Part shown: positions 8,674 through 59,596 of the stretch, piece after piece | How the letters are laid out: each line of letters begins with the position of its first letter | Position numbering within the stretch: position 1 is the first letter of the stretch | Source of the DNA: Roseibium sp. MMSF_3544 | GTDB lineage: Bacteria; Pseudomonadota; Alphaproteobacteria; Rhizobiales; Stappiaceae | Reading direction: 5' to 3' | DNA: 64,000 nt | Assembly: GCF_030732845.1 (NCBI RefSeq) | Contig: NZ_JASHKA010000005.1 | Span: 248,001 to 312,000 of the forward strand | Notes under the pieces: model-generated | Database searches by the model: none | What the model was told of the DNA's origin: nothing | Seen by the model: only the letters and a program-made list of their open reading frames with translations | Translations under genes and position numbers: made by a program

Positions 8674-8724
8674 CTTTCAATCGAGTTCTCACCGGATTGC
8701 AGCTCATGTGCCGCGCTTTGTTGC

Positions 8725-9517: not shown

Positions 9518-9682
9518 TTGTTTCCTCCAGCTAAAACAATGGAGAAAGCGGACCCAATACGCAAGCAGGGGAAATTCTGCAGCTTTGACGGGTTTCAAAG
9601 AAAGAAACGCATGACGTATTCGTGACTTTGTATCGGCGGCAACCGTTTGCAAGGATGCGCGACACTTCAAGGAGTTAGACAT

Positions 9683-10060: not shown

Positions 10061-10074
10061 GCCATGAGTGTGCT

Positions 10075-10710: not shown

Positions 10711-10993
10711 TTCGGGTCATTTCCTTGAAAGCAGACATTGTTGAAACAGCAGATTGAAGCCTGCTTCGGGAGGGTATCACACAGCCTTGCAACGTGCCGT
10801 TTGAGGCTTGGATTCGGCCTTGTTACAGCGGTTTGAAGGCGACCGCGACCTGCTTTTGGCAAATCATTTTACAGCCCTGTGAATACTCTCCTTAAAGTAC
10901 TGAAACAAAATGTCTTTTAGCTACGCGGAAAACCACTTCAAATTTGGCCCGCGCACTTGAATCGGCTATAAAAGAGGCAGCAATAACAATGAA

Positions 10994-42095: not shown

Positions 42096-44418
42096 CCGGA
42101 ACAACCTCGTCACCCCGATGAAGCATGTCCGCAAGGGATTGCCGCATGACAGCGCGATCAAGCATGTAACTGGCAAAGCGACCTATATCGACGACATTGT
42201 CGAACCGCTCGGCACGCTGCATGTTGTGCCGGGATGGGCCAGACATGCGGTCAGGGGAAGGCTGAATGCAGTTCACCTGGAAGAGGTCCGGGCGATGCCG
42301 GGTGTCGTCGCGGTCCTGACAGCAAAAGACATTGCCGGGATCAATGACTGCTCGTCGGCTTTTGGCGATGACCCCGTTCTGGCGGAAGAGGAGGTTCTCT
42401 TTTACGGTCAGGTCGTCTTCGCTGTCGTTGCCGAGACACGGGAAGTAGCGAGAAAGGCAGCGCTCAAGGCGAACATTGATGTTGCTCCGCTGACGCCGAT
42501 CCTGACCCCTGATGATGCGGTCGCAGCCGACACCACGGTGCTTCCCGATTACCAGTTCCGCCGCGGATCGCCTGAAACGGGGCTTCAGGCATCAAGCGAA
42601 GTACTTGCCGGTACAATGATGATCGGCGGTCAGGAGCACTTTTATCTTGAGGGACAGGTCGCAATGGCCATTCCCCAGGAAGACGGTGGCATGCTGGTTC
42701 ATTCCTCAACCCAGCATCCAACCGAAATCCAGCATACGGTCGCCAAGGTCCTCGGAGTTCCGGATGCCGCGATCACGGCGGAAGTCCGCCGAATGGGTGG
42801 CGGGTTTGGCGGAAAGGAATCCCAGGCCAACCAATGGGCGGCATTGGCGGCACTTGCTGCCCGGAAAACAGGACGCGCCTGCAAGATGCGTCTTGATCGG
42901 GATGATGACATGATCATGACCGGCAAGCGGCACGACTTTAAGGTCAACTGGAAAATCGGACACAATGGAACCGGCAGAATTCGGGCCGTGGACATTGAGT
43001 TTCTGTCGCGGTGCGGCTACTCCGCCGATCTTTCGCTCGGCGTGAACGACAGGACGATGTTTCACGCTGATTCCAGTTACTTTTACCCGGATGCGTCTAT
43101 CCGCTCCAGAAGACTGCGCACGGACACGTGTTCAAACACCGCCTTCCGCGGATTTGGCGGCCCCCAGGGAATGCTTGCGGCTGAACGAATGATCGATGCG
43201 ATTGCCATTCAGCTCGGCAAGGACCCGCTGGAAATCCGCAAACTGAATTTCTATGACGGTGAGCGGAACCTGACACCCTATGGCATGCCGGTCGAGGAAC
43301 ACGAGGTCATGCATGACCTCATTTCGCGATTGGAAGTCAGAAGCAGGTACTGGGAGCGGCGCGAGGAGATCAAGGCTTTCAACGAGACCAACGCGGTGCT
43401 CAAGAAAGGACTGGCGCTTACGCCGGTGAAGTTCGGAATTTCCTTCACGCTCAAACATCTCAATCAGGCCGGTGCGCTGGTGCATCTTTATACGGACGGC
43501 TCGGTTCACCTGAATCATGGTGGAACAGAGATGGGGCAGGGGCTCTACCAGAAAGTTGCCCAGGTCGTGGCCGAAGAATTCGGCGTCACGATGGACAAGG
43601 TCGCCATCACGGCCACCAACACGTCCAAGGTGCCGAACACCGGGCCGACAGCAGCGTCATCCGGCACGGACCTGAATGCCATGGCTGCAAAACTGGCAGC
43701 GCAGGAAATCAAGTCCCGTCTTGTTACTATGTTGTGCGAACAGCACCAGTGCGGCCCGGAGGCCATTCACTTCGGCGACAATAAGGTCCTTGTTGGCGAG
43801 CAGGCTTACTCGCTGTCGGAAATTGCCAAACAGGCCTACGTGTCGCGCATCCAATTGTCCCATGCCGGATACTATGCGACGCCCGGTATTACCTGGGACA
43901 GGGAGAGCGTAACAGGCCGGCCCTTCTACTATTTTGCGTTTGGCGGTGCTTGCTCGGAGGTTACCGTCGACACCATGACCGGTGAAATGACGGTCGACCG
44001 GGTCGATATCCTTCATGACGTCGGCCATTCCCTCAATCCAGCCATCGATCTAGGTCAGATCGAAGGTGGCTTCGTGCAGGGGATGGGGTGGCTGACGACG
44101 GAAGAGCTTGTCTGGGATGAGGAGGGCCGTTTGCGGACGCACGCACCTTCAACCTACAAGATTCCAACGGCCTCAGATCTTCCGGCAGAGTTCAATGTTC
44201 AACTCTATGAGGGGGATGGAAACCCGCAGGAGACAGTCTACCGCTCCAAGGCTGTCGGCGAGCCACCGGTCATGCTCGCAAACTCTGTGTTTTGCGCAAT
44301 CACGGACGCCATCGCGAGCCTTTCGCCGGGCCTGTTGCCCAACCTCGATGCGCCCGCAACGCCCGAAGCGATCATGAAAGCGGTTCAGGACATGCGGCGC
44401 AGAAGGTCTTCGTCATGA
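42079..44418 (+). CDS. xdhB: Xanthine dehydrogenase large (molybdopterin) subunit
   Basis: 779 aa, oxidises hypoxanthine to xanthine and urate at a molybdenum cofactor. Family motifs: RMGGGFGGKESQ, NTAFRGFGGPQGML, HGGTEMGQGLYQKVAQV, GQIEGGFVQGMGW, and near the C-terminus VGEPPVML, which holds the catalytic glutamate. Complete. Start overlaps xdhA, and its stop overlaps xdhC (ATGA), so all three are translationally coupled. Confidence 0.97.
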   Translation: MTAPLDRNNLVTPMKHVRKGLPHDSAIKHVTGKATYIDDIVEPLGTLHVVPGWARHAVRGRLNAVHLEEVRAMPGVVAVLTAKDIAGINDCSSAFGDDPVLAEEEVLFYGQVVFAVVAETREVARKAALKANIDVAPLTPILTPDDAVAADTTVLPDYQFRRGSPETGLQASSEVLAGTMMIGGQEHFYLEGQVAMAIPQEDGGMLVHSSTQHPTEIQHTVAKVLGVPDAAITAEVRRMGGGFGGKESQANQWAALAALAARKTGRACKMRLDRDDDMIMTGKRHDFKVNWKIGHNGTGRIRAVDIEFLSRCGYSADLSLGVNDRTMFHADSSYFYPDASIRSRRLRTDTCSNTAFRGFGGPQGMLAAERMIDAIAIQLGKDPLEIRKLNFYDGERNLTPYGMPVEEHEVMHDLISRLEVRSRYWERREEIKAFNETNAVLKKGLALTPVKFGISFTLKHLNQAGALVHLYTDGSVHLNHGGTEMGQGLYQKVAQVVAEEFGVTMDKVAITATNTSKVPNTGPTAASSGTDLNAMAAKLAAQEIKSRLVTMLCEQHQCGPEAIHFGDNKVLVGEQAYSLSEIAKQAYVSRIQLSHAGYYATPGITWDRESVTGRPFYYFAFGGACSEVTVDTMTGEMTVDRVDILHDVGHSLNPAIDLGQIEGGFVQGMGWLTTEELVWDEEGRLRTHAPSTYKIPTASDLPAEFNVQLYEGDGNPQETVYRSKAVGEPPVMLANSVFCAITDAIASLSPGLLPNLDAPATPEAIMKAVQDMRRRRSSS

Positions 44419-45422
44419 CGGTTTGGCAGCACATCGTCGACTGTTTGAACAGCACCGGGTCTTGCGCCCTCGTGACGGTAACGCAAGTCAGCGGCTCAAC
44501 CCCACGAGAGGCTGGCGCCAGAATGGTGGTTCGTCCGGACATGGCCTTTTTCGGCACGATAGGCGGAGGCACACTGGAATTCGAAGCCATCCGCAAGGCA
44601 TCGGAAGCTGCCCGCATTGGCGAACCGGCTTTTCTCCAGCAATCCGTTTCACTCGGTCCAGATCTCGGTCAGTGCTGCGGCGGGCGCGCCAAGATTGCAA
44701 TCGAGGTTCTGACGGCTGACGCGCTCCCGGCCGCCGAACACCTCGCATCTGTTGAGGCCGGGACCCGTACCTTCGGGACGTATGCAGAATTCTCCGACGG
44801 CCGCGTCAGCGACAGGCAGGTGCTCGAACAAGCGCCGGAGGATCCGTTTGCTCTGGAGGAAGAGGATGGTTTCCTCAGGTCGGTGACCGAGCGGTTCGGA
44901 GATGCGAGGCAGCCCCTGTTTCTCTTTGGAGCGGGCCACGTCAGCAAGGCCCTGATTCTCGCGCTTGCCCCGTTGCCGTTTTCCATTACCTGGATCGACA
45001 GCCGGGCCGACCAGTTTCCCGGAGCGGTTCCTGCCAACGTTATCAAAGTCTGTCCGAAGGATCCGGCAGCTGTGCTGGATGAAGCACCTGACGCAGCGTT
45101 TGTTCTTGTCATGACCCATTCGCATACTCTTGACGAGGAAATCATGGCACGAGCCTTGCTAGGTCAAAGGTTTGGCTATTGCGGTGTCATCGGATCGAAG
45201 ACCAAGAGAGCGCGGTTCATAAAGAGATTGAAAGCACGAGGGATAGACGAGGGACTGGTGTCGAGCATGGTCTGCCCGGTCGGAAAAACAACAATAAAAT
45301 CAAAGCATCCAGCCGCCATCTCGGCCGGGATTGTTGTTGACCTTCTGGAGAGGGTTGAAGCTGGCCGTCAGCTGGCTGCCTCGACTCGTGAAACTCTACA
45401 AAAAGCGACACGTGGTCAATAA
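44415..45422 (+). CDS. xdhC: Xanthine dehydrogenase accessory protein XdhC
   Basis: 335 aa molybdenum-cofactor chaperone that binds MPT, promotes sulfuration and inserts the cofactor into XdhB. N-terminal domain with VSGSTPREAGARMVV and the conserved GQCCGGR; C-terminal Rossmann-type domain with LFLFGAGHVSKALI and GYCGVIGSKTKRARF. Start ATG 44415 overlaps the xdhB stop; a longer open frame from 44292 lies inside xdhB and is not used. Confidence 0.95.
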   Translation: MTVWQHIVDCLNSTGSCALVTVTQVSGSTPREAGARMVVRPDMAFFGTIGGGTLEFEAIRKASEAARIGEPAFLQQSVSLGPDLGQCCGGRAKIAIEVLTADALPAAEHLASVEAGTRTFGTYAEFSDGRVSDRQVLEQAPEDPFALEEEDGFLRSVTERFGDARQPLFLFGAGHVSKALILALAPLPFSITWIDSRADQFPGAVPANVIKVCPKDPAAVLDEAPDAAFVLVMTHSHTLDEEIMARALLGQRFGYCGVIGSKTKRARFIKRLKARGIDEGLVSSMVCPVGKTTIKSKHPAAISAGIVVDLLERVEAGRQLAASTRETLQKATRGQ

Positions 45423-45446
45423 ATCGGCAGCGGCGTGGGGGAAAGT

Positions 45447-47030
45447 GTGGCAGAGACAACTCTTTCAGAGGTGGAAAACAAGACGGTCCGCGTGGACAGG
45501 GCCGACAAGGAAACCTTGTTGGATGCACAGGGGCTGACCAAGCGGTTTGGTGACATTCTCGCCAATGATCGTGTCGACCTAGTCATCAACAAAGGCGAAA
45601 TCCACGCGCTTCTTGGGGAGAACGGTGCAGGCAAATCGACCCTTGTGAAAATGTTCTACGGGTCACTGGACCCGGACGGCGGTGAAATCTTCTGGGAAGG
45701 CCGAAAGGTTTCCATCGGCAATCCTGCGGCGGCACGCGAGCTTGGAATCGGTATGGTTTTCCAGCATTTCTCGCTCTTCGAAGCTCTGAATGTGGTTGAA
45801 AACATTGCACTGGCGCTCCCGAACCCCGGGAACATGTCCGAACTGGCCAGCCGTATCGAGACCGTCTCCAGGGACTACGGGTTGCCACTAAACCCGGATG
45901 ATATTGTCGCGGACCTGCCGGTCGGGATCCGGCAGCGTATCGAAATCGTCCGCTGCCTGTTGCAGGAACCGCAACTGATTATCATGGACGAACCAACGTC
46001 TGTTCTGACACCGCAGGAAGCGGATCAGTTGTTTCAAACGCTCCAGCGCCTGGCGGAAGAGGGGTGTGCCGTCCTTTATATCAGCCACCGTCTTGAGGAA
46101 GTGAAACGGATCTGCCACCACGCAACAATCCTGCGTCACGGGCAGGTCGTGCGCGAATGCGACCCGACCCTTGAAACACCTGCCTCGCTCGCGAGCATGA
46201 TGGTAGGTGCGGATGTCGCCTCCGTAAGCGCTGGAGACCAGGCGCCGGATATCGGCGAAACACGCCTGACTTTGCAAGAACTGAGCGCTAAGGCTGCGAC
46301 GCCGTTTTCAACAGCACTCAATGGGATTTCCCTGGAGCTGCGCGCTGGAGAGGTTGTCGCCATAGCAGGTGTTGCCGGCAACGGGCAGGGGGAACTCTTC
46401 GACGCGATCTCCGGCGAGATGCCGGTGGCGCCCGCTATGGTGCACCTTGACGGGAAACCTTGCGGCAACAAAAACATCACCTGGCGACGCAAGCAAAACG
46501 CGGCATTCGTGCCGGAAGAGCGCCTCGGTCACGGCGCCGTGCCTGGCATGAAACTCTCCCAGAACATCGTGCTCACCCGCCATAGCACGGGCGACGGACT
46601 TGTCGGTGGCGGTTTTGTTTCCAATGCGAAGGCAGCCGACCTGGAAAAGCGGATCAAGCAGGCCTACGACGTGCGCATGTCGCACGACGATCCCGAAGCC
46701 CGGTCCTTGTCGGGCGGAAACCTGCAGAAATTCGTGGTCGGTCGCGAGCTCGACCGGAAGCCGGGCATTCTGGTGGTGAACCAGCCTACCTGGGGCGTCG
46801 ATGCCGGTGCCGCCGCGCTGATACGCCAGGCTCTGATCGATCTCGCGCGCAGCGGATCGGCGGTTCTGGTGATCAGTCAGGACCTCGACGAGATTTTTGA
46901 GATCGCCGACAAGGTCGCTGTGATTTCGCGAGGCTACCTGTCTGCGGCAGAACCTGCCGCCGAGATGACGCGAGAGCGGGTCGGTCTGTTGATGGCCGGT
47001 GGTGCCGAAGCGCAAGGGGAGGTCGCCTGA
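45447..47030 (+). CDS. ABC transporter ATPase of the BMP/nucleoside type (tandem domains)
   Basis: 527 aa with two fused ATPase domains. Domain one has Walker A GENGAGKST, LPVGIRQRIEIVR in place of the LSGGQ signature, and Walker B LIIMDEPTSVL. Domain two has Walker A-like GVAGNGQGELFD, signature LSGGNLQKFVVGREL and ILVVNQPTWGVD. Asymmetric, as usual for sugar/nucleoside importers. I chose GTG 45447 (GGGGGA upstream) over GTG 45435. Linked to the xdh genes, so the cargo is probably a purine base or nucleoside (inference). Confidence 0.92.
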   Translation: MAETTLSEVENKTVRVDRADKETLLDAQGLTKRFGDILANDRVDLVINKGEIHALLGENGAGKSTLVKMFYGSLDPDGGEIFWEGRKVSIGNPAAARELGIGMVFQHFSLFEALNVVENIALALPNPGNMSELASRIETVSRDYGLPLNPDDIVADLPVGIRQRIEIVRCLLQEPQLIIMDEPTSVLTPQEADQLFQTLQRLAEEGCAVLYISHRLEEVKRICHHATILRHGQVVRECDPTLETPASLASMMVGADVASVSAGDQAPDIGETRLTLQELSAKAATPFSTALNGISLELRAGEVVAIAGVAGNGQGELFDAISGEMPVAPAMVHLDGKPCGNKNITWRRKQNAAFVPEERLGHGAVPGMKLSQNIVLTRHSTGDGLVGGGFVSNAKAADLEKRIKQAYDVRMSHDDPEARSLSGGNLQKFVVGRELDRKPGILVVNQPTWGVDAGAAALIRQALIDLARSGSAVLVISQDLDEIFEIADKVAVISRGYLSAAEPAAEMTRERVGLLMAGGAEAQGEVA

Positions 47031-48118
47031 TGCGCATCGAGCTCGTCAAACGCAAAGAACACAGTCAGGCGATGGCGCTGCTGTCCCCGTTGATCGCGGT
47101 TGCATTGACGGCATTGGCTGCTGCAATCATTTTCTTAATTTCCGGCCATAATCCGCTGGAAGCACTCTATAAATTCTTTATAGAACCACTGACCCAGCAA
47201 TGGTCCCTCGAAGCAACGATCGACAAGGCAACGCCCTTGATCCTGATTGGTTGCGGATTGGCTGTTTGTTACTTGTCCAACAACTGGAACATCGGCGCTG
47301 AGGGCCAGTTTGTTGTCGGGGCAATCTTCGGCTCTGTGCTTCCGGTGTTGTTTCCGTCCTTTGAGAACGTGGCGACGCTTCCGCTTATGTTGCTGTTCGG
47401 CGCAATTGGAGGGGCGCTTTGGGCGCTGATCCCGGCGCTGTTGAAGACCCGTTTCAATACAAACGAAATCCTGACCAGTCTGATGCTGGTCTATGTCGCC
47501 GGTCTCCTGCTGGACTACCTTGTGCGTGGGCCCTGGCGGGATCCTGGGGGCTACAACTTTCCAGAGTCCCGGATCTTTTCCGATGCAGCGACATTGCCGG
47601 AAGTCTTTGGCGGTACAATGAGCCTGTCCGCGCCCATCACAATTGTCGTTGCAGTTGTCCTCGCGGTCGTGCTGGCCAAAACGCTGAAAGGCTTCGAAAT
47701 CAGGGTCATGGGTGAAAGCCCGCGCGCTGGAAGCTTTGCTGGTTTTTCCGCCAAGGGATTGACGATCTTCTCGTTTGCGCTTGCAGGTGCTCTCGCAGGA
47801 CTTGCCGGAACCATGGAAGTTTCCGGTGCACTCAATCAGCTTCTGCCCTCCATCTCTCCGGGCTATGGCTTCACCGCCATCATCGTTGCCTTCCTGGGGC
47901 GCCTTAATCCGATTGGCATCATCATTGCCGGTTTCGTCCTGGCGCTCAGCTATATCGGCGGGGAGGGCGTTCAGTCGGCGATGGGCGTTTCGAACGAAAT
48001 TGCCAGCGTAATTCAAGGCCTCCTCCTCTTCTTCGTTCTCGCCTGCGACACGCTGATCCTTTACCGGATCCGGATAACCGGGCAGCGCGCGTCAACCGGG
48101 GAGGCAAGCCATGTTTGA
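47030..48118 (+). CDS. ABC transporter permease (BMP/nucleoside type)
   Basis: 362 aa inner-membrane protein of the BPD_transp_2 family with about nine to ten helices; conserved AVCYLSNNWNIGAEGQFVVGA and EVSGALNQLLPSISPGYGFTAII. ATG overlaps the ATPase stop by one base (TGATG). Pairs with the following permease as a heterodimer. Confidence 0.93.
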   Translation: MRIELVKRKEHSQAMALLSPLIAVALTALAAAIIFLISGHNPLEALYKFFIEPLTQQWSLEATIDKATPLILIGCGLAVCYLSNNWNIGAEGQFVVGAIFGSVLPVLFPSFENVATLPLMLLFGAIGGALWALIPALLKTRFNTNEILTSLMLVYVAGLLLDYLVRGPWRDPGGYNFPESRIFSDAATLPEVFGGTMSLSAPITIVVAVVLAVVLAKTLKGFEIRVMGESPRAGSFAGFSAKGLTIFSFALAGALAGLAGTMEVSGALNQLLPSISPGYGFTAIIVAFLGRLNPIGIIIAGFVLALSYIGGEGVQSAMGVSNEIASVIQGLLLFFVLACDTLILYRIRITGQRASTGEASHV

Positions 48119-49025
48119 AGCCGTTCTTCTAACCGTCATAACGGCAGCAACCCCGCTTTTGATCGCCGCGGTCGGCGAACTCGTTGTGGAGCGGTCTGGC
48201 GTCCTCAATCTCGGTGTCGAGGGTATGATGATCATGGGGGCCGTGATCGGATTTGCAGTCGCCAACCAGACAGGATCAGGAACACTTGGTGTCTTTGCGG
48301 CCGTTGGCGCTGGAATGGCAATGTCGGCGCTCTTCGCTGTGCTGGTTCTTTTCCTGGTGGCCAACCAGGTTGCGACCGGTCTTGCCCTGACGATCCTCGG
48401 CATCGGGTTTTCCGGTATGATCGGTGAAGCTTTCATTGGCGTCCCCGGTCTCGATCTGCCGCAGCTCTACATTCCGGTCTTGTCCGAAATACCGTTCATT
48501 GGTCCGGTTTTCTTTCAACAGGACGCTCTGGTCTATATCAGCTTTGCACTTGTCGCCTTGGTCGCCTACGGCCTGTTTCGAACCAGGGTTGGTCTCGTGC
48601 TCAGGGCTGTTGGTGACAATCACGGCTCCGCACACGCCCTTGGCTACTCCGTTGTGAAAATTCGCTTCATGGCGATCCTTTTCGGCGGCGCATGCGCCGG
48701 CCTGGCGGGAGCCTATCTGTCGCTCGCCTACACGCCACAATGGGTGGAGAACATGACGGCCGGGCGCGGCTGGATTGCACTTGCGCTGGTGGTTTTCTCG
48801 TCCTGGCTGCCGCTTCGGGTGGTTGTTGGGGCGTACCTGTTCGGCGCTGTAAGCGTCCTAAACTTGCATGCACAGGCGCTGGAGTTCGACATCCCGTCGC
48901 AGCTCCTATCAAGCTTGCCGTATCTTGCGACTATTGTTGTGCTTGTCCTTATCTCCGCAAACCGCAGACTGACGCTCGTGAACACACCAGCGTGTCTAGG
49001 GAAACCGTTCGTACCAGACCGGTAA
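48111..49025 (+). CDS. ABC transporter permease (BMP/nucleoside type)
   Basis: 304 aa second permease of the same importer, about eight helices; ERSGVLNLGVEGMMIMGAV and RAVGDNHGSAHALGYSV are typical of the YufQ-like partner. Overlaps the preceding gene by 8 bases. Confidence 0.93.
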   Translation: MFEAVLLTVITAATPLLIAAVGELVVERSGVLNLGVEGMMIMGAVIGFAVANQTGSGTLGVFAAVGAGMAMSALFAVLVLFLVANQVATGLALTILGIGFSGMIGEAFIGVPGLDLPQLYIPVLSEIPFIGPVFFQQDALVYISFALVALVAYGLFRTRVGLVLRAVGDNHGSAHALGYSVVKIRFMAILFGGACAGLAGAYLSLAYTPQWVENMTAGRGWIALALVVFSSWLPLRVVVGAYLFGAVSVLNLHAQALEFDIPSQLLSSLPYLATIVVLVLISANRRLTLVNTPACLGKPFVPDR

Positions 49026-49124
49026 TCTCCCAGCAGCCGGTCCGGCCTGAACCCGAAAGCGATCGCGGGTGAGGCTGAAGAAGAGATCGCAAAAAGAGAG
49101 ATCAAAGAAGAGGGGAATGACCAT

Positions 49125-50189
49125 ATGAAATCTCTTTTGAAAGCAACCGTTGCCGCCGTGGCTTTTGCCGCTGCCGGTTCCGCTGCAAATGCAGCGGACG
49201 TCAAGGCCTGCTTCGTTTACGTCGGCCCAGTCGGTGACTTCGGCTGGACCTACCAGCACGACCAGGGTCGTCTCGCCGTCGAAGAACATTTCGGCGACAA
49301 GGTCGAGACTGCGTTCCTGGAAAGCGTTGCAGAAGGCCCTGACGCAGAGCGCGCGATTGAACGCTTTGCGCGTGAGGGCTGCAACGTGATCTTCACGACG
49401 TCCTTCGGTTACATGAACCCGACGATCAAGGTCGCCAAGAAGTTTCCTGATGTGAAATTCGAGCACGCAACCGGCTACAAGACCGCTGACAACGTTGCGA
49501 CCTATAACTCCAAATTCCATCAGGGCCGCTACATCATTGGCCAAATCGCCGCCAAGCAGTCCAAAACAGGTGTCGCCGGCTATATTGCTTCCTTCCCGAT
49601 CCCGGAAGTCGTTTCGGGCATCAACGCGTTCCTGCTGGGCGCGCAATCGATCAATCCGGATTTCCAGGTCAAGGTGGTCTGGGTCAACACCTGGTTCGAT
49701 CCGGGCAAGGAAGCTGACGCTGCCAAGGCGCTGATCGACCAGGGTGCGGACATCATCACGCAGCATACGGATTCAACCGCCCCGCTTCAGGTGGCGCAGG
49801 AACGCGGTGTGCATGGCTTCGGCCAGGCGTCTGACATGATCAATTTCGCCAAGGATGCGCAATATACGGCTATTATCGACGACTGGGCGCCGTACTACAT
49901 CGAACGTGTTCAGGAAGTTCTCGATGGAAACTGGCATTCGCACAGTTCCTGGGAAGGGCTGGCTGAAGGACACGTTGTGATGGCGCCCTATACCAACCTG
50001 CCGCCGGACGTGGTTGAGATGGCTCAGGCCACCGAGGCCAAGATCAAGGGGGGCTGGGAACCGTTCACCGGCCCGATCATCAAGCAGGACGGAACCGTTG
50101 CAGCTGAAGAAGGCGTCACGCTTGATGACGGCGCGATCCTCGGCATGAACTGGTATATTCAGGGCGTCGACGACAAGTTGCCTGAATAA
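49125..50189 (+). CDS. BMP-family substrate-binding protein, purine type
   Basis: 354 aa periplasmic lipoprotein-like/BMP (PnrA-like) binding protein. Signal peptide about 1-25 (AAGSAANA), without a lipobox cysteine. Fold markers: CFVYVGPVGDFGWTYQHDQGR, IFTTSFGYMNPTIKVAK, HQGRYIIGQIAAKQS, GADIITQHTDSTAPLQVAQE. PnrA-like proteins bind purine nucleosides. Its place at the end of the xdh operon supports purine capture, though the exact ligand is inferred. A hairpin follows at 50200. Confidence 0.93.
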   Translation: MKSLLKATVAAVAFAAAGSAANAADVKACFVYVGPVGDFGWTYQHDQGRLAVEEHFGDKVETAFLESVAEGPDAERAIERFAREGCNVIFTTSFGYMNPTIKVAKKFPDVKFEHATGYKTADNVATYNSKFHQGRYIIGQIAAKQSKTGVAGYIASFPIPEVVSGINAFLLGAQSINPDFQVKVVWVNTWFDPGKEADAAKALIDQGADIITQHTDSTAPLQVAQERGVHGFGQASDMINFAKDAQYTAIIDDWAPYYIERVQEVLDGNWHSHSSWEGLAEGHVVMAPYTNLPPDVVEMAQATEAKIKGGWEPFTGPIIKQDGTVAAEEGVTLDDGAILGMNWYIQGVDDKLPE

Positions 50190-52954: not shown

Positions 52955-53285
52955 GGCGCACCTGCTTTCGGAAAAGTCTCGAGAAAATTCGTAAACGATT
53001 GATATTGTGCAATAATCTGATCGGAGATCAACCAAAAGAAATCGAAATTGCGAACAGCGAGCCCTTCCTCACGAAGGAAGCCACAGGTTCGCATTGTCTG
53101 CAAGAGCAGAGATTTCCGATAATTTCACGGTGCTAGGCAAGACAGGCGCCTTTGGGTCCAATGGCAGTGGATTGCCATCGAAAGCACTCCGAAGATGATT
53201 GGCGACCAGGGAATATGCTGGCATTCAGGATGCCATGCATGGGACGGGAAATTTGGTTTCCCGTCCGGCTGCTGCTTAAGGAAAC
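52955..53285. other. Gene-free stretch between the abhydrolase gene and the guanidine operon
   Basis: 331 bases. It contains the hairpin at 53242-53266 at the end of the guanidine operon and presumably the minus-strand promoter of the hydrolase. Plus-strand open frames here have no ribosome binding site and overlap the small membrane protein gene. Confidence 0.6.
53242..53266 (-). terminator. Hairpin at the end of the guanidine operon
   Basis: Perfect 10-bp stem GGACGGGAAA / TTTCCCGTCC with a 5-nt loop, 20 bases after the last gene of the operon. On the minus strand no T run follows, so it is a weak or Rho-assisted terminator or a 3' stabiliser. Confidence 0.5.
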
Positions 53286-53501
53286 TTACTTCGCTTTGCC
53301 GGTTCTGCGGCTCACTCTCCAAACGCCCGCAACAATGGCACCCGTGGCGATCGCTCCAAGCACCAGGGCTGCATGGAATGGCGAGCCAAAGAAGTGCGCC
53401 ACGGCTTCGCCCCAACCGGACATCTCATGATGGTTTCCCGGGTGCGCAAGCGCCGGTGAAGAGGTCGCGGCAACGGCCGCAGCAACAAGAAAAGATCTCA
53501 T
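53286..53501 (-). CDS. Tiny HupE-like membrane protein
   Basis: 71 aa. Signal peptide about 1-19 (ending SPALA), so the mature N-terminus is HPGNHHEMSGWGEAVAHFFGS, followed by one membrane helix (about 44-62) and a basic cytosolic end (RRTGKAK). The mature start HPG...H with later His resembles the nickel-binding N-terminus of HupE/UreJ nickel permeases, but only one or two helices remain of the usual six to seven. The ATG overlaps the stop of the His-rich gene (ATGA), so it belongs to the guanidine operon. Proposed periplasmic nickel capture; inference. Confidence 0.72.
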   Translation of the reverse strand: MRSFLVAAAVAATSSPALAHPGNHHEMSGWGEAVAHFFGSPFHAALVLGAIATGAIVAGVWRVSRRTGKAK

Positions 53502-53983
53502 TTGGCAATGTCTCCTTTGGCAAGACGGTTGGCAAGCACGTCGATCAGGTCGATGTCGTCGCGCTCGGTAAGCGAAACATAGGTGAAGGTCATGGTTTCC
53601 CGCTCCGACACCATGGAGCCGGGAAAGGGCATGTAGGCGAGCTCACGGGAAGCGAAGGCGGGCGAGGCTGTGCCGATTTGCCAGTTCGAGACAATCTTTG
53701 CATCGACAAGATGTTGGATAAGGCCGTCCGAACCGGGCTGATGAAACGGAACGCCGGCAAGCCTCAGATAGCTGGTCTTGTCCTCAGCCGAGCGGAAACC
53801 GTCGATGAAGCTTGTGGCAAGCGCCTGCAGTTCTTCTGCTTTTTCCGTGTCCGAGGCCCCATGCACATGGGAATGAAGGTGGTCTGATCCTGCGTGATTA
53901 TGCCCATGCAGGTGCCCATGACCGTGATGATGGCCATGATCATGTGAATGATGGTGATGATGATGGTCGTGGTCGTGGGTCAT
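53498..53983 (-). CDS. Histidine-rich protein, putative nickel chaperone
   Basis: 161 aa. Residues 1-42 contain 22 histidines alternating with Asp, Gly and Ser (MTHDHDHHHHHHSHDHG start), a metal-sink sequence like those of HypB or UreE tails. Residues about 48-161 form a separate domain of unknown family (LATSFIDGFRSAEDKTSYLR, NWQIGTASPAFASRELAYM). No signal peptide, so cytosolic. It starts 4 bases after the guanidine hydrolase gene stop and overlaps the HupE-like gene, so co-production with the enzyme is clear. Role as Ni2+ store or donor for the hydrolase is inferred. Confidence 0.8.
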   Translation of the reverse strand: MTHDHDHHHHHHSHDHGHHHGHGHLHGHNHAGSDHLHSHVHGASDTEKAEELQALATSFIDGFRSAEDKTSYLRLAGVPFHQPGSDGLIQHLVDAKIVSNWQIGTASPAFASRELAYMPFPGSMVSERETMTFTYVSLTERDDIDLIDVLANRLAKGDIAK

Positions 53984-53987
53984 CGGA

Positions 53988-55226
53988 TCACTCCACGTCC
54001 GGACCGGCTGGAATGGAAACCGGTTTGTTGATGATCGACTTGTGAGCGCCCATTTTGCCGTGGGAGACAAGCGTGCCGAGCACATCCACGATCACTCGCG
54101 TTGCCAGGAGTGCGGTGATGTCGGAGCAGTCATAGGGCGGCGACACCTCAACAACTTCAAGTCCGCAGATGCCTTCCTTGGCGACCAGCGACACGAGTTC
54201 CAGTGCTTCGCGCGGCAGGAAGCCTCCTGGTTCGGGCCAGCCGGTGCCGGGCACGAAGCCGCAGTCGACACTGTCGATGTCGAAGGAGATATAGACCGCA
54301 TCAGCGTCTTTCCACGCAAGTTCCAGCGCCCGCGCTGCGGTTTCCGCCAAGCCCATCTCTTCCACATCCCGCATCGTGAAGATGTTGGTGTTGCGCTCGC
54401 GGGCAACTTCAACGCCCTCGCGCGGAACCTGCCAGCCACCGATCCCGATCTGGACCAGGTTCACCGCTGGAACGTTGACGAGATCAGTGGCATGAAACCA
54501 CGGCGTTGTGTGCATGCGCTCGTCCAAGTCCTTCTCCTGGATATCGATATGCCGATCGAAATGAACGATGCCGATGCGTTTGGATGTGCATTCTGCTATG
54601 CCGCGCACGCACGGAAACCCGATGGAATGGTCGCCGCCGATCATGATCGGCAAAGCCCCGGACGAGGCAACATGCGACACGGCGCGGGTGATCTGATCGA
54701 AAGTCTTTTCGATATTGGCCGGGATCGTGAAAATGTCACCAACATCACAGAGCGTCATCTGTTCGCGCAGGTCGACGCCCATTTCATAGTTGTAGGGCGT
54801 GTAGAGCGCGGAGATTTTACGCACGCCTTGCGGCCCGAAACGGGTGCCCGGCCGGTAGGTGGTGCCGCCGTCGAACGGAATGCCGATGACAGCTGCATCA
54901 TAGGCCCCGACCTGTGTGACGTCTTCGATATAAGGCGCTTTCAGGAACGTGTTGATGCCCGCATAATGCGGCAGCTCACCGCGCGCAAATGTCGGGATCG
55001 ACTTGTCAGTCAAGCTGTCGGATCCGGTGAGCCCCATGCGAAGCGCCCAGGCCTTTTCCTTCTCCCAGGCCGCTGAGGGCAGGGTGCCTTCCTTTTCAGC
55101 CGCCTTCCAACCGCGAAGCTGGAGTTTGTCGAAATCCGGATGATGCTGTCTGGCCGCCGGCTGCCGCATCATGGAACCGGCTGCTTTATGCCGTGTGGCC
55201 GGGCCGAATGGGTCAGGAATTGGCAT
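53988..55226 (-). CDS. gdmH: Ureohydrolase, probable Ni-dependent guanidine hydrolase GdmH
   Basis: 412 aa arginase/agmatinase-superfamily enzyme. Metal ligands are intact: GGDHS (197-201), FDRHID (223-228) and SFDIDSVD (314-321). The usual DAHxD is DRHID here. The substrate region that in agmatinase holds HG-x-FR reads RMHTTPWFHATDL. An N-terminal extension of about 100 residues precedes the core. With a guanidine-I riboswitch leading the operon, an ABC importer before it and His-rich proteins behind it, guanidine is the likely substrate, split to urea and ammonia as known for cyanobacterial GdmH. An automated pipeline would call it agmatinase. It follows the ATPase gene by 9 bases, with GAGGAA before the ATG. 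Confidence 0.82.
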   Translation of the reverse strand: MPIPDPFGPATRHKAAGSMMRQPAARQHHPDFDKLQLRGWKAAEKEGTLPSAAWEKEKAWALRMGLTGSDSLTDKSIPTFARGELPHYAGINTFLKAPYIEDVTQVGAYDAAVIGIPFDGGTTYRPGTRFGPQGVRKISALYTPYNYEMGVDLREQMTLCDVGDIFTIPANIEKTFDQITRAVSHVASSGALPIMIGGDHSIGFPCVRGIAECTSKRIGIVHFDRHIDIQEKDLDERMHTTPWFHATDLVNVPAVNLVQIGIGGWQVPREGVEVARERNTNIFTMRDVEEMGLAETAARALELAWKDADAVYISFDIDSVDCGFVPGTGWPEPGGFLPREALELVSLVAKEGICGLEVVEVSPPYDCSDITALLATRVIVDVLGTLVSHGKMGAHKSIINKPVSIPAGPDVE

Positions 55227-55235
55227 GGACGTTCC

Positions 55236-56069
55236 TCATGTTTGTTTGCTGTTTGAAGGATTAGATGTGTTGGCGGCCGGCTTTGACGCGATTGATCCTG
55301 CAATGGTTTCGGGATCAATTGTCTCCGGTCCCGTAACGGGGGCAGCCAATGGAAGGTCATAGGTGATCGTCGCACCAAAGGCTTCCGGGGCCTGCGGATC
55401 GTGACGGATCTTGTCGAAAACCAGCAGACGCGTGCCGAGCTTGAAGGCCTCGTGGATGTCATGCGTGACCATGAAAACGGTCATGTTGAGGTCCTGCCAG
55501 AGACTGAGCAAAAGCGCATGCATATCGACGCGAATGCCCGGATCAAGCGCCCCGAAGGGTTCGTCCAGAAGCAATATGCTCGGCTTCTTCACCAGCGCTT
55601 GGGCAATTGCAAGGCGCTGCTGCATGCCGCCGGAAAGCTGAACCGGATATTTGTTGGCCGCAGCACTCAAGCCGATCCGCTCCAGCAGCTCTTCGATTTC
55701 GGCGATGGCAGCGCGCTTTGAGGCGCCGAAGAGCTTTCCGGTAAAGGGTGATTTTTCAAATTCACCCGCCAGAATGAGGTTCTCCGCAACGGTAAGGTGC
55801 GAGAACACCGAATATTTCTGAAAGACGATCCCGCGATCGGGTGTCGGTTCCTCGGGCAGGGCATTGCCGTCAAGCAGGATTTCACCCCGCGTTGGATGCT
55901 CTTGTGACAAGAGCATGCGCAGGAAGGTCGACTTGCCGCATCCCGATGCCCCCACAATTGTGCAGAACGATCCGGTTTCGACGTCCAGGTCGACCCGCTC
56001 GAGAACCGGGGTGCCGTCGTAATACTTGGAGACAGCCTTGACGGAAAGTTTTTTCGCGGCCTCGTTCAT
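55236..56069 (-). CDS. ABC transporter ATPase, guanidine importer
   Basis: 277 aa, nitrate/sulfonate/taurine-type (TauB/SsuB-like) ATPase. Walker A GASGCGKST, Q-loop IVFQKYSVF, signature LSGGMQQRLA, Walker B ILLLDEPFGALD and H-loop VTHD. The C-terminal 30 residues are Pro, Ser and Asn rich and probably disordered. ATG overlaps the permease stop by ATGA. Assigned to guanidine from operon position behind the riboswitch. Confidence 0.9.
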   Translation of the reverse strand: MNEAAKKLSVKAVSKYYDGTPVLERVDLDVETGSFCTIVGASGCGKSTFLRMLLSQEHPTRGEILLDGNALPEEPTPDRGIVFQKYSVFSHLTVAENLILAGEFEKSPFTGKLFGASKRAAIAEIEELLERIGLSAAANKYPVQLSGGMQQRLAIAQALVKKPSILLLDEPFGALDPGIRVDMHALLLSLWQDLNMTVFMVTHDIHEAFKLGTRLLVFDKIRHDPQAPEAFGATITYDLPLAAPVTGPETIDPETIAGSIASKPAANTSNPSNSKQT

Positions 56070-56887
56070 AGGGCATCTCCACCCAGATGATGCCAGCGGA
56101 AGGCCCGTCGCGAGATCAACAGAAGAAGGCGATCGAGCAGGAAGGCGAGCAGGGTGATCCAGACGACATACGGCAGGATCACGTCCATCGCGAGGTAGCG
56201 TCGGACCAGAAAGATCCTGTAGCCGAGACCGGTCGTTGACGCGATCGCTTCAGCCGAGATCAGGAATATCCAGGCCGGCACCAGTCCCAGCCTGAGAGCT
56301 GTTATCAGCTTCGGCAGCACCTGCGGAATGACGAGGCGCGTGATCATCTGCCAAACGGATGCGCCGAGCGTTTCCGCCTTGATGATCATTTCCCTTGGGA
56401 TGTCCAGCACCGCCTGTGCGGTGGATCGGATCATTATCGGCGCGGTTCCGATCACGATCAGCGCAATCTTGGAAACCTCTCCCAGCCCGAATGTAATGAA
56501 GAGGATAGGCAGGATGGTGATCGGCGGGATCAGCGAGAAAGTCGCCAGATAGGGCGCCAGCGTGCTGCGGATATGGGGAATGAAGCCAATGGCGATCCCG
56601 ATTGTGAGAGCCAGCAACGTGGAAACGGCCATACCGCTGCCAAGCCGCCACAGGCTGTCGAACGTATCGATCCACAAGAGCAGATCGCCCGACCGCCGGT
56701 CCGGAACCGCCGCCATGCGCCAGAATGCGGCCCCCATGCTTTCCAGCGAGGGCAGAAGCTTGTCCGCAGGGTTCTCAAGCCGCCGGTAGTGGCTCGCAAT
56801 CGCGTAGGTCACGACTGTTGCCAGGAAGGGCAGAAGGCCAAGCGCCAGTGCGGTCACCCGGGACGGTTTCCGGTTGATGATGCGCAT
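56066..56887 (-). CDS. ABC transporter permease, guanidine importer
   Basis: 273 aa, BPD_transp_1 type with about six helices; EAA loop region LGASVWQMITRLVIPQVLPKLI is clear, with GLGYRIFLVRRYLAMDVI near the C-terminus. Probably a homodimer. An AGGAT lies before the ATG; the 71-base gap to the binding-protein gene holds a strong hairpin. Confidence 0.9.
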   Translation of the reverse strand: MRIINRKPSRVTALALGLLPFLATVVTYAIASHYRRLENPADKLLPSLESMGAAFWRMAAVPDRRSGDLLLWIDTFDSLWRLGSGMAVSTLLALTIGIAIGFIPHIRSTLAPYLATFSLIPPITILPILFITFGLGEVSKIALIVIGTAPIMIRSTAQAVLDIPREMIIKAETLGASVWQMITRLVIPQVLPKLITALRLGLVPAWIFLISAEAIASTTGLGYRIFLVRRYLAMDVILPYVVWITLLAFLLDRLLLLISRRAFRWHHLGGDAL

Positions 56888-56914
56888 TTGGGATCCTAGG
56901 GCTGTCGGAGAGGA

Positions 56915-56940
56915 GGGTCCGGCCGAACCCGGCCGGACCC
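56915..56940 (-). other. Intercistronic hairpin behind the binding-protein gene
   Basis: Perfect 11-bp stem GGGTCCGGCCG / CGGCCGGACCC with a 4-nt loop, 18 bases after the binding-protein stop. Such hairpins between a binding-protein gene and its permease gene commonly protect the upstream mRNA so the binding protein is made in excess. Confidence 0.7.
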
Positions 56941-56958
56941 GTTGGTAAAACCCGTCGC

Positions 56959-58029
56959 TTAAAGCGCGCCGTCAGCCGCCATTTGCATGAAGCTCGCGTC
57001 GAAGCGCAGCTTGACGTTGTTGGTGTCGCCGTAAACCGACCCGTCCGGGAAGGCGACGCCGACAAATTCAGGGCTCGGTGCTCCTTCGCCGAGAATGCCT
57101 TTGTCGTAGAGGAACTCGGCAACGAATTTCATAGTCGCCGAGAGTTCGGCGGCTTTCGAAAATTCGACGGCCTCGGCGGGCGTATAGAACATTTTCGTCG
57201 TCGCGAGCTGGGCGTCGTAGCCTGCCAGATCCGTGCCCGAAGCTTCCGCCATCGCGGTGCGGGCGGCAATGCCTTCTTCAGAGTCAGACGACATGATCGC
57301 CATCAATTCATACCAGGCACCAACTAGTGCCTTGCCGAAATCCGGGTTGTCGGCGAGCGTTTCGGTGTTGACCATCATCACGTCGATGATTTCGCCCGGA
57401 ATGCCGGCGCTGTCGAAGACCTTGGTCGCGTTTGGTTGCGCCTCGATTTCAGACAGCAGCGGGTTCCAGGTGACAACGGCGGTCACATCGTCGGTGGCAT
57501 AGGCCGCGATCATGTCCGCATCCGACGTGTTGACGACGGTCAGGTCCTTTTCGCTGAGATCTACGGTGTCGAGCGCGCGGGCGAGCAGGTAATGGGAAAC
57601 CGAGAGCTCGACCAGGTTGACGGTCTGGCCCTTGATATCGGCAAGTCCGCTCTTGTCTTTCAGGATGATGCCGTCATTGCCGTTGGAATAGTCGCCGACA
57701 ATCAGTGCCGTGGTGTCGACACCGCCACCGGCCGGAATGGAGAGCGCGTCCATGTTGGTCATGGAGCAGCCGTCATATTCGCCTGCCGTGTACTGGTTGA
57801 TCGATTCGACATAGTCGTTGATCTGCACGATCTCCACGTCGATCCCGTATTTGTCGGCCCATTTCTTCATGATGCCGCTGTCCTGAAGATAGCCCCAGGG
57901 CATCCAGCCGACATAGATCGACCAGCAGACCTTGAAGTCCTTCTTTTCCTCGGCCTGAACGGAGGGAACGGAGAGCGGCAACGAAAGCGCGGCCGCGAGT
58001 AGGGAAGCTTTGAAGAGTGATTTCAGCAT
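56959..58029 (-). CDS. Periplasmic binding protein of the guanidine ABC importer
   Basis: 356 aa NMT1/TauA-type solute-binding protein. Signal peptide MLKSLFKASLLAAALSLPLS ending VQA. The mature part starts KVCWSIYVGWMPWGYLQDSG, where the many aromatic residues could form a cation-binding pocket, followed by GEYDGCSMTNMDALSIP, DIKGQTVNLVELSVSHYLL and AVVTWNPLLSEI. ATG 58029 has AGGAG ten bases upstream; the frame extending to 58101 lies in the riboswitch expression platform and is not used. First gene after the guanidine-I riboswitch, hence the proposed ligand. Confidence 0.88.
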   Translation of the reverse strand: MLKSLFKASLLAAALSLPLSVPSVQAEEKKDFKVCWSIYVGWMPWGYLQDSGIMKKWADKYGIDVEIVQINDYVESINQYTAGEYDGCSMTNMDALSIPAGGGVDTTALIVGDYSNGNDGIILKDKSGLADIKGQTVNLVELSVSHYLLARALDTVDLSEKDLTVVNTSDADMIAAYATDDVTAVVTWNPLLSEIEAQPNATKVFDSAGIPGEIIDVMMVNTETLADNPDFGKALVGAWYELMAIMSSDSEEGIAARTAMAEASGTDLAGYDAQLATTKMFYTPAEAVEFSKAAELSATMKFVAEFLYDKGILGEGAPSPEFVGVAFPDGSVYGDTNNVKLRFDASFMQMAADGAL

Positions 58030-58132
58030 CTGTGCGCGTCTCCTGTCTTCAGCCCGGTGGAAGGAACCTTCCGGGTATGAGTCTTTGAGTTTCTTGCGCA
58101 CGTCCGGGAGCAGGCTCGCGCGCGCGAAACCT

Positions 58133-58260
58133 CGTGCAGTTGTCTCCCGGGTTTTTGTCCCGCCGTGTCACCGGACTATGTCGGCCATTGCCTATAAACG
58201 TCCGGCTTGCACCTCTCGGTCCTGCGTCGTCATCGACCGGATCCCTAGGCGCGCTGCACG
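58133..58260 (-). ncRNA. Guanidine-I riboswitch (ykkC motif)
   Basis: On the minus strand all conserved blocks of the ykkC/guanidine-I aptamer occur in order: CCTAGGGATCCGG, AGGACCGAGAGGT, then ACACGGCGGGACAAAAACC and CCGGGAGAC. The closing helix P1 pairs CGTGCAG (58260-58254) with CTGCACG (58139-58133) perfectly. A lineage-specific longer P2 arm (GCCGGAC...GTCCGGT) lies in the middle. The RNA senses free guanidinium and usually turns expression on. It ends about 100 bases before the ABC binding-protein start. Confidence 0.96.
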
Positions 58261-58271
58261 AACGGAACATC

Positions 58272-58286
58272 GCAAGCGGTGTGCCA
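58272..58286 (-). promoter_or_regulatory. Sigma-54 promoter of the guanidine operon
   Basis: TGGCACACCGCTTGC on the minus strand: exact TGGCAC-N5-TTGC core, -24 GG and -12 GC ten bases apart. With -12 at 58272 the start site falls on 58260, the first base of riboswitch helix P1. RpoN dependence implies an enhancer-binding activator such as NtrC. Confidence 0.85.
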
Positions 58287-58432: not shown

Positions 58433-59596
58433 CTAGTCATCGGCTAGGTAATTTGCGCCGAAGCTCATGAGCAATCTTATAAACTGGGTGCGGGTTGAAC
58501 AGCCAGTCTTGGTCAGGATCGCGTTGACCTGGTTGCGGATTGTGGCAACAGCCCGGTTGTTTTGCTCCGCGATTTGGGTGTTTGTCTGCCCCTCTGCCAG
58601 TTGGAGCACAAGTGCCGTTTCGGCCTGTGTGAGACCAAAGATTTTCTGAACCGGGTAGGGGTCGAGACTGACGGGTTTTGTCGTATCGAGACTGTGCAGC
58701 ACATATCCGGCGAATTCACCGGAACCGATCTCTTCGGCCTTGTTCAGATGCTGCAACTCGATACAGAGATGCTCACCGTTCCGGTTGGAAATCACTTCCT
58801 TCCGGGGTCTGGCGCCGAACTGGCCGTGATTTTGGACGTCTGATTTCAGTTCCTCAAACCGTTTCTGATCGGCGTCTCGACTGAATTGCAATGCGCCGCC
58901 AGGGGCTTTGACGAAGACACCGGTGTCCTTTCGCTGGCGCCTGAATTCTTCGTTTTCCTGAACAATCCGGCCCTTGGCATCGAGGACGCAAATCCCGAGG
59001 GCAAGTCTGTCCATCGCAGCCATAAGCTGAAGCCTGTGTGTGGCAAGATGCTGCGTTGGCCGGCTGAGATCGATGGCTTTTGCAAGATGTGGCAGCACCT
59101 TGTTGAGAACGGACAGTTCTTCGGCAAGCGCCGGACCGCGACCATCCGGATACTGGAGGGTGAATTGCCCGACATTGAGATTGTCCTTGTTCAGGAACGC
59201 AATCACCCGATGCCTGAGACCAATCTCCATAAGCGACCGGACATTGGGACGAGACAGGAACTCGTCATAGTCATCATAGACGGGCTCGTCGCTGAGTGCT
59301 TCGATATCGTCCTTCATCGATATGATCGACTTGGCAACGGAACGATCAGCTATTTCCTGCTGCAGGTTGTCGTGGACGTAATCGTCCATAGCCCTTTCAG
59401 AAAACGACCCGCACATGTGAGTGATCAGAAAGGGTCTTTTGGGCAGGTTTTCGGCGTATTCGAAAATCGAGCAACTTCTCGCGCCGGCAATTTCGGCGCA
59501 GCGGTCGAGAACATCGGGCCAAAGCGACGGATCGAAAGCCGCGTCATACATGGAGAAAACCAGATCATCGGCGTGCCGATCTCGCCTTGCCGTCAT
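58433..59596 (-). CDS. LuxR-type transcriptional regulator
   Basis: 387 aa. C-terminal LuxR helix-turn-helix at about 322-380 (LTQAETALVLQLAEGQTNTQIAE split as LTQAETALVLQ and NNRAVATIRNQVNAILTKTG). The N-terminal 300 residues include a PAS-like sensory region (about 195-300, LALGICVLDAKGRIVQENEEF). Not a quorum-sensing LuxR by the visible N-terminus. Lies upstream of the guanidine operon in the same direction; any regulatory link to it is unproven, and a sigma-54 promoter would need an AAA+ activator, which this is not. Confidence 0.85.
   Translation of the reverse strand: MTARRDRHADDLVFSMYDAAFDPSLWPDVLDRCAEIAGARSCSIFEYAENLPKRPFLITHMCGSFSERAMDDYVHDNLQQEIADRSVAKSIISMKDDIEALSDEPVYDDYDEFLSRPNVRSLMEIGLRHRVIAFLNKDNLNVGQFTLQYPDGRGPALAEELSVLNKVLPHLAKAIDLSRPTQHLATHRLQLMAAMDRLALGICVLDAKGRIVQENEEFRRQRKDTGVFVKAPGGALQFSRDADQKRFEELKSDVQNHGQFGARPRKEVISNRNGEHLCIELQHLNKAEEIGSGEFAGYVLHSLDTTKPVSLDPYPVQKIFGLTQAETALVLQLAEGQTNTQIAEQNNRAVATIRNQVNAILTKTGCSTRTQFIRLLMSFGANYLADD

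Follow-up and report, generated by a model that had tools for sequence, protein, structure and literature searches.

How might a guanidine hydrolase that is predicted to depend on nickel be supplied with its metal at a locus where no hypA or hypB gene was found nearby? These nickel chaperone genes are described as often present in published guanidinase operons, and PMC12186494 reports that Synechocystis GdmH needs Ni-delivery proteins. The window analyzed here, a stretch of 64,000 nucleotides from Roseibium sp. MMSF_3544, carries on its minus strand one guanidine-I riboswitch followed by a six-gene operon. We consider it likely that this is a guanidine-induced nitrogen-scavenging operon in which two small proteins, P0002 and P0003, supply nickel, with P0002 loading GdmH. 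The case is built from sequence: the riboswitch, the gene order, the enzyme family and its specificity residues, the pairing of gdmH with P0002 among the relatives sampled, and a search of the neighborhood that found no hypA/hypB. Its new part is the P0002 gene behind gdmH, for which we propose a place in a nickel-delivery module that stands in for HypA/HypB.

The riboswitch and its operon

The aptamer (58142..58259, minus strand) matched RF00442 over its full length at 58259-58142 with an E-value of 9.7e-10 and a covariance-model score of 67.1 bits, above the gathering cut-off of 63, and was the sole guanidine-I match of this search in the whole genome. The guanidine-I (ykkC) assignment made in the initial annotation is thus confirmed by score, and guanidinium binding and switching are predicted. 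Our own covariance model, R1, gave the aptamer 92.2 bits, the window itself being one of its 18 training rows. Among the best 80 of at least 584 related loci, a set skewed to close kin, the riboswitch is present in 79, one of them cut by a contig end. Binding of free guanidinium to the aptamer would release expression of the operon. A possible switching stem is formed by CTCCCGG (58104..58110, minus strand) and the complementary CCGGGAG of the aptamer (58150-58144): the MFE fold of the leader, modestly better than that of shuffles (z -1.88), contains all seven of these base pairs, and CTCCCGG recurs in loci L001-L025, 28-33 nt downstream of the aptamer. At least 6 nt of this anti-aptamer segment are found in 29 of 79 leaders from the best 80 of at least 584 loci and no such segment in the other 50, so the switching idea is limited to close kin. 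The segment is joined to a T run in one of these 79 leaders (L024), a combination absent from the window.

All six genes lie on the minus strand: a periplasmic binding protein of an ABC importer (56959..58029, with an alternative GTG start possible at 58101), an ABC permease (56066..56887, PF00528), an ABC ATPase (55236..56069, PF00005), gdmH (53988..55226), P0002 (53498..53983) and P0003 (53286..53501). The permease and ATPase genes overlap by 4 nt, as do those for P0002 and P0003, and 4 nt separate gdmH from the P0002 gene; these coordinates bear out the compact six-gene arrangement described earlier. The order riboswitch, binding protein, permease, ATPase, gdmH and P0002 is kept in 77 of the best 80 of at least 584 loci, so the arrangement is not due to chance. 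The exceptions are two loci cut by contig ends (L027 and L064) and one without the binding protein (L045); in four of the 77 (L007, L011, L017 and L020) additional coding sequence separates the binding protein gene from that of the permease. The binding protein scored 561.8 bits against TIGR03427, over the curated cut-off of 333.9, and the importer would carry guanidine inward. A perfect 10-bp hairpin without a T run, read from the letters about 20 nt past the last gene (53242..53266, minus strand), might mark the operon end; it was not among the two hits of a terminator scan, which found 4.9 in shuffles. A promoter scan found two, both on the opposite strand, and 2.0 in shuffles.

A GdmH-type ureohydrolase

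The ureohydrolase contains the arginase-family domain PF00491 (E 2.5e-77) and shares 65.5% identity with Synechocystis GdmH, while its identity with three other ureohydrolases is 31-38%. Its top PDB matches are two characterized guanidinases (7esr/7oi1 and 9fek; E 1.8e-162 and 7.1e-158), followed only at 1.8e-51 by the next entry, and solved agmatinases match far less well, with a best E of 4.1e-38 compared with 1.8e-162. The enzyme conserves each of the ten residues published for metal binding and specificity, namely the di-metal ligands His200, Asp224, His226, Asp228, Asp316 and Asp318 together with Thr123, Trp330, His239 and Glu360. Thr123 and Trp330 are the equivalents of T105 and W313 of the Nitrospira inopinata enzyme, the Thr/Trp pair given for guanidine specificity in PMC11410670. 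In a tree of 28 rows, run without an agmatinase and with five characterized rows as aligned segments only, 18 rows of the present type group in one clade (100/99) adjoining Synechocystis GdmH. A wider set (98/94) holds this clade, Synechocystis GdmH and the N. inopinata enzyme, and the enzyme stands apart from proclavaminate amidinohydrolase, guanidinobutyrase and guanidinopropionase. The grouping with both characterized guanidinases upholds the earlier GdmH-type assignment. Its sequence makes the enzyme a guanidinase and adds one more member to a known kind; guanidine as its substrate, nickel dependence and catalysis in this organism are inferred. We reject an agmatinase reading on the basis of identity, residues and tree. 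Phage records gave one weak ureohydrolase match.

It is very improbable that the enzyme acts on some other guanidino compound, such as methylguanidine or agmatine. The TIGR01230 agmatinase model reached 173.6 bits, barely under its cut-off of 174.3, and relatives are annotated as 'agmatinase family protein'; both points are countered by the identity values above and the retained specificity Thr and Trp, and in another operon the guanidine-I riboswitch is reported to bind guanidine but not methylguanidine (PMC12508155). As a guanidinase, GdmH would use nickel to convert guanidine to urea and ammonia, and the urea could be finished by the urease that is encoded elsewhere in the genome. A genome-wide search with the urea/guanidine carboxylase model returned 19 partial matches, all under the cut-off, which agrees with the initial annotation that there is no guanidine carboxylase; the strongest of them resemble biotin carboxylases by profile position. 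Three adjacent partial matches lie on contig C59. Guanidine is thus very probably imported and then hydrolyzed to urea and ammonia, a reading of the initial annotation that is well supported by aptamer, identity, residues, tree, urease and the lack of a carboxylase over the cut-off, with activity itself predicted.

P0002 and its pairing with gdmH

The initial annotation listed a 22-His protein after the ureohydrolase without giving it a role; we regard it as the more interesting finding. P0002 indeed has 22 His in its N-terminal 45 residues, and 24 overall, ahead of a conserved core that spans roughly 110 residues. Across members from the best 80 of at least 584 loci the number of His ranges from 6 to 33 (median 18), and Cys is absent in 67 of 79; the His run of L071 sits at the C terminus. 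Some members are poor in His over the whole protein (L027 with 6, L038 with 7 and L034 with 9), which speaks against the tail as a carrier. The core contains no invariant or near-invariant His or Cys, as expected for a docking domain joined to a mobile metal tail.

No family was matched when 28 members were searched against Pfam and NCBIfam at E 0.01, and P0002 did not match the HypA, CobW/HypB/UreG or UreE_N/UreE_C models. The full-length predicted model gave no usable structural match (best Foldseek E 0.41, best VIA Z 3.3), and its confident core gave no clear PDB match (best Foldseek E 0.60, best Z 2.7, with weak COMMD-type rows); such predicted models do not demonstrate a new fold. No mention of a P0002-like protein was found in the literature searched, which did not extend to the Funck 2022 GdmH paper and its supplements, where an earlier mention is possible.

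The P0002 gene comes next after gdmH in 79 of the best 80 of at least 584 loci, and the remaining locus ends at a contig edge. In three overlapping genome samples (289, 398 and 297 genomes; among those with gdmH, G000 occurs in three samples and G365, G440 and G107 in two), all 40 distinct genomes that have a gdmH of this clade, each of them alphaproteobacterial, carry it behind that gene on the same contig and strand, with a median gap of 39.5 nt. Excluded beforehand were G064 and G079 (55-56% identity, partial) and G778 (54%), in which P0002 had no match. This strict pairing shows a shared role, the kind of which the pairing itself leaves undefined. One locus labeled as an Anaerolineae MAG (L027) has both genes, possibly through mis-binning.

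Several roles could account for the pairing. We think it unlikely that P0002 is a co-induced nickel store, buffer or detoxifier, with GdmH loaded spontaneously or through other chaperones of the genome. Disordered, very His-rich tails would fit storage and the genome encodes HypB and UreE, but the conserved part of P0002 is its folded core (63% mean column identity); the protein is also single-copy in the genome and occurs without gdmH in the three samples only as one decayed remnant, whereas one might expect a general nickel store to appear next to urease or hydrogenase genes as well. That P0002 serves as a structural or regulatory partner subunit, its tail only tuning or protecting the site, seems quite unlikely. 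The pairwise-distance correlation between GdmH and P0002, 0.916, is the highest among ten gene pairs, and metformin hydrolase depends on a second subunit (PMC11399263), but neighbors inherited together are also expected to correlate highly, a plain subunit would not need a His tail, and PMC11410670 describes the N. inopinata enzyme as a homohexamer that resembles GdmH and has no such partner.

We therefore favor nickel delivery, in which P0002 would hold Ni2+ on its disordered His tail while the folded core docks on apo-GdmH, so that the di-metal site is loaded, the job done by the HypA/HypB homologues (GhaAB) in cyanobacteria. More likely than not, P0002 represents a new class of nickel metallochaperone, with a mobile polyhistidine tail and an undescribed alpha-beta docking core, no GTPase partner and dedication to guanidinase, which together with the HupE-tip protein P0003 would form a minimal nickel line replacing HypA/HypB in Alphaproteobacteria. 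The pairing makes the nickel question of guanidinases directly testable, for example in Roseibium aggregatum or Sinorhizobium fredii NGR234, extends the likely range of guanidine users to marine roseobacters and rhizobia, and provides a small accessory protein that may aid the production of active guanidinase in E. coli.

Proposed nickel supply and known systems

P0003, a small membrane protein of 71 aa, shows by eye a signal-peptide-like start, a predicted mature N-terminal His and a single membrane segment. It looks like the tip of HupE, but neither PF04955 nor PF13795 was matched at E up to 1, so the HupE likeness noted earlier goes no further than resemblance. Positional equivalents are found in 47 of 79 loci from the best 80 of at least 584, against 9 of 1600 control windows. 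In the proposed module P0003 would capture Ni2+ at the periplasmic face through its N-terminal and further His, or present it to a permease. A HupE nickel permease gene directly follows P0002 in S. fredii NGR234 and in genome G440, and full-length proteins in loci L110 and L113 match PF04955. Against a nickel-supply module, a HupE query found none in the best 80 of at least 584 loci, and in 32 of the 79 no P0003-like gene was detected. Neither hypA nor hypB was found in the same best 80 loci; the genome itself encodes a HypB with a HypA-like neighbor (by eye), which could serve GdmH and thus counts against a dedicated loader. Such a loader is not always needed, since the guanidinases of L106-L108 (two Rubrobacter records and one Nonomuraea record) have neither P0002 nor detected hypA/hypB alongside and the N. 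inopinata enzyme works without a known chaperone according to PMC11410670.

UreE and HypB encoded by this genome, both confirmed by family models (UreE by UreE_N and UreE_C), carry His-rich stretches similar to those of P0002; P0002 members, in contrast, match neither family. P0003 resembles the Ang-1/Ang-2 domains of HupE/UreJ-2 permeases, where His right after the signal peptide is proposed to capture metal at the membrane (PMC12537917), but is 71 aa long, has a single membrane segment and lacks a permease domain. The operon of Synechocystis sp. PCC 6803 GdmH (Sll1077) likewise unites a guanidine-I riboswitch, an Ssu/Tau-type ABC importer, gdmH and nickel accessory genes (PMC8390497, PMC10119275, PMC12186494); its accessory genes are hypA/hypB (GhaAB), whereas here a His-tailed protein outside known families and a tiny membrane protein take their place. 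A guanidine-I riboswitch is likewise present in the N. inopinata operon, and its guanidinase falls into the same wider clade, but that operon has an APC permease rather than an ABC importer and no recognized nickel loading protein, its loading route being described as unclear (PMC11410670). The metformin hydrolase operon (hypA-hypB-mefH alpha/beta-hupE) also encodes a nickel ureohydrolase together with chaperones and HupE, and differs in its HypA/HypB chaperones, two enzyme subunits and other substrate (PMC11399263); in one study of that enzyme, co-expressed chaperones were without effect in vitro, yet were required for growth (PMC11271267).

The guanidinase, its riboswitch and the probable pathway

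P0001, the GdmH ureohydrolase of the window, is an arginase-family member that, among solved structures, matches Synechocystis GdmH (7esr/7oi1, E 1.8e-162) and the N. inopinata guanidinase (9fek, 7.1e-158) best, with proclavaminate amidinohydrolase next (E 1.8e-51). It shares 65.5% identity with Synechocystis GdmH, 61.5% with the N. inopinata enzyme and 31-38% with three other ureohydrolases. After correction for PDB sequence numbering, which runs two ahead of the published one, 10 of 10 published positions are kept (Thr123, His200, Asp224, His226, Asp228, His239, Asp316, Asp318, Trp330 and Glu360); Thr and Trp are the criterion for calling an inferred guanidinase in PMC11410670. Phylogeny sets the window enzyme beside Synechocystis GdmH: in a 28-row tree with long outgroup branches, no agmatinase and five characterised rows present as aligned segments only, Synechocystis GdmH adjoins a clade (support 100/99) of 18 rows, comprising the window, 15 alphaproteobacterial loci of the 80 retained below, NGR234 and the relative locus L027. 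The N. inopinata enzyme falls just outside this clade and the alphaproteobacterial locus L096 further out.

Every feature listed in the initial annotation was found, including the guanidine-I aptamer and the six minus-strand genes behind it. In the suggested Rfam search the aptamer, at 67.1 bits, exceeds the gathering score (63), covers the whole model and is the sole guanidine-I match across the 6.88-Mb genome. Our own covariance model, built on 18 aptamers, recovers the riboswitch in 79 of the best 80 of at least 584 relative loci (one truncated by a contig end), 14 of the 80 matching by construction because they were used in building the model. Of 10 loci run against Rfam, 6 of them from the 80, 9 gave the aptamer match; the Rubrobacter radiotolerans locus L108 did not. 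A CTCCCGG segment complementary to the aptamer's conserved CCGGGAG lies 28-33 nt downstream of the aptamer in the window and loci L001-L025, and is absent from most other leaders. All seven pairs are present in the window's MFE fold, the leader scores a statistically weak z of -1.88 against shuffles, and no T run follows the segment in the window, where we infer translational or Rho-dependent control.

The permease and ATPase match upstream of gdmH in 80 of the best 80 of at least 584 loci, among which the nearest named ones belong to Roseibium, so that the window probably comes from this genus or one close to it. The binding protein does so at 78 loci, the exceptions being L027, whose contig begins within the permease, and L045. 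In L045 (4987-6056) the binding-protein gene is absent and the riboswitch stands immediately 5' of the permease gene. The window's binding protein scores above the TIGR03427 threshold ('putative urea ABC transporter substrate-binding protein'); judging by the enzyme and the riboswitch, the importer's substrate would be guanidine. Urease alpha (977 bits) and UreE are encoded elsewhere in the genome, UreE with UreF and UreG beside it by eye. In line with the initial annotation, the genome search gave no urea/guanidine carboxylase match above the model cut-off, and hydrolysis is the pathway that fits best.

Directly upstream of the operon, on the same strand, a 387-aa protein (58433-59596) has no Pfam match at E 1e-5 and, by eye, a LuxR-type HTH-like C-terminal end. 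To the left of the operon (42079-50189), genes for a xanthine-dehydrogenase-like molybdopterin hydroxylase and for ABC transporters are possibly a second nitrogen-scavenging neighbourhood, for purine or nucleoside salvage.

A His-tailed companion of gdmH

P0002, the His-tailed protein encoded next, lies downstream of gdmH in 79 of the best 80 of at least 584 loci; in the exception, L064, the contig stops 18 nt past the gdmH match. In a class sample of 289 genomes, gdmH of this clade occurs in 7 and P0002 in 8, 7 of these adjacent. The eighth P0002 (genome G125; locus L105, 7091-7360) has a decayed core interrupted by a stop codon. The initial 13 kb of the contig, in which this core lies, hold no match to gdmH, and the core is likely a relic of a lost guanidinase operon. 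The phylum sample (398 genomes) holds each gene in the same 7 genomes, and the order sample (297) holds gdmH in 32 and P0002 in 31, the genome lacking P0002, G778, having a 54% identical enzyme. When the samples are merged, gdmH of this clade is found in 40 distinct genomes, and in 40 of these 40 P0002 shares its contig and strand, at a median gap of 39.5 nt (range -24 to 502). Of 5 genomes sampled from the window's genus, 2, among them that of the window itself, have both genes and 3 have neither, so the two were gained or lost jointly. Across the 77 loci that have all five genes, GdmH and P0002 also show the highest correlation of pairwise distances, 0.916, compared with 0.758-0.876 for the other pairs; this is minor support because co-inherited neighbours score high too.

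Two further P0001 matches in the class sample belong to a different branch: ureohydrolases of about 55% identity with a ~20-residue insert, containing HTHMH in locus L095 (genome G064) and HHDHSHMH in L096 (G079). The specificity Trp is replaced by Thr in L096, and the L095 sequence ends before that position; neither genome has a P0002 match. Their substrate probably differs from that of the guanidinase. A 50% identical homologue on an Embleya plasmid (L109, 6001-7083) is probably not a guanidinase, since its specificity Trp is Thr. On a Rubrobacter indicoceani plasmid (L106), a guanidine-I riboswitch (5861-5971) precedes a guanidinase, a sodium:solute symporter, an opposite-strand formamidase and then urease genes (6052-13242), and neither hypA/hypB nor P0002 was detected at the locus.

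P0002 consists of a variable N-terminal tail and a ~110-residue core. Its 79 members contain 6-33 His residues over the whole protein (median 18), 67 of them are Cys-free, and none of the nearly invariant core positions is His or Cys; in L071 the His run is C-terminal instead of N-terminal. AlphaFold confidently predicts two helices, six strands and a last helix for the core (mean pLDDT 92, 80 sequences; 83 at full length, 28 sequences). Foldseek and VIA-align gave no convincing PDB match to the predicted structure, a result that falls short of proving the fold new, and 0 of 28 members match Pfam or NCBIfam at E 0.01. The core profile finds a single copy in the window's genome, and the accessible parts of the literature searched, a scope that excludes the original GdmH paper, hold no description of the protein.

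Accessory genes and a proposed nickel supply

The 71-aa membrane protein P0003 follows P0002 in the window. Similar ORFs (40-95 aa with a hydrophobic start, Ala-His and a second hydrophobic segment) start no more than 120 nt from the stop codon of P0002 at 47 of 79 loci, a count that does not include the window's own P0003, which matches the same description; 9 of 1600 random windows pass this test. The overlap with P0002 is 4 nt in 40 of the 47, and an H-x(1,2)-H-G motif occurs in 17. An A-x-A type site immediately precedes the His in 46 of 47, a figure that is partly selection because the test demanded His near Ala. By eye, these ORFs resemble the N-terminal tip of HupE; N-terminal His domains on HupE/UreJ-2 permeases are metal-binding, according to PMC12537917.

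In the literature, hypA and hypB are frequent in guanidinase operons (PMC8390497; PMC10119275), GdmH activation depends on such nickel loaders (PMC12186494, PMC11271267), and nickel loading of the N. inopinata guanidinase is termed unclear (PMC11410670). Using the genome's own HypB and HypA as tblastn queries (E 1e-4; HypA picked by eye), we detected hypA/hypB in 0 of the best 80 of at least 584 loci, with flanks of up to 7 kb as contigs allow; the HypB query had the sensitivity to pick up UreG at 31% identity. A HupE query likewise matched 0 of these 80. A HupE/UreJ permease gene does stand immediately after P0002 in S. fredii NGR234 (L110, E 6.4e-45) and in genome G440 (L113, E 7.7e-50), and the genome's HypB and UreE bear His-rich stretches resembling those of P0002. 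Taken with the published need for nickel loaders, the lack of hypA/hypB matches at the 80 loci, the HupE neighbours and the His-rich HypB and UreE point to nickel delivery as the putative role of P0002.

A 2OG-Fe(II) dioxygenase-like ORF separates the binding-protein gene from the permease gene in four relatives, L007 (3550-4662), L011 (3607-4662), L017 (4321-5373) and L020 (3635-4699), its Pfam match being confirmed in L020 alone; an extra ORF follows it at least in L007, L011 and L020.

The guanidinase operon itself is of a known type, and its novelty lies in the accessory genes. The order of P0002 and then HupE in NGR234 and G440 resembles the metformin hydrolase operon (PMC11399263), and the dioxygenase-like ORF, although located in guanidinase operons, may be likened to the methylguanidine hydroxylase/lyase pair MgdH/MgdL of a guanidine carboxylase operon (PMC12508155).
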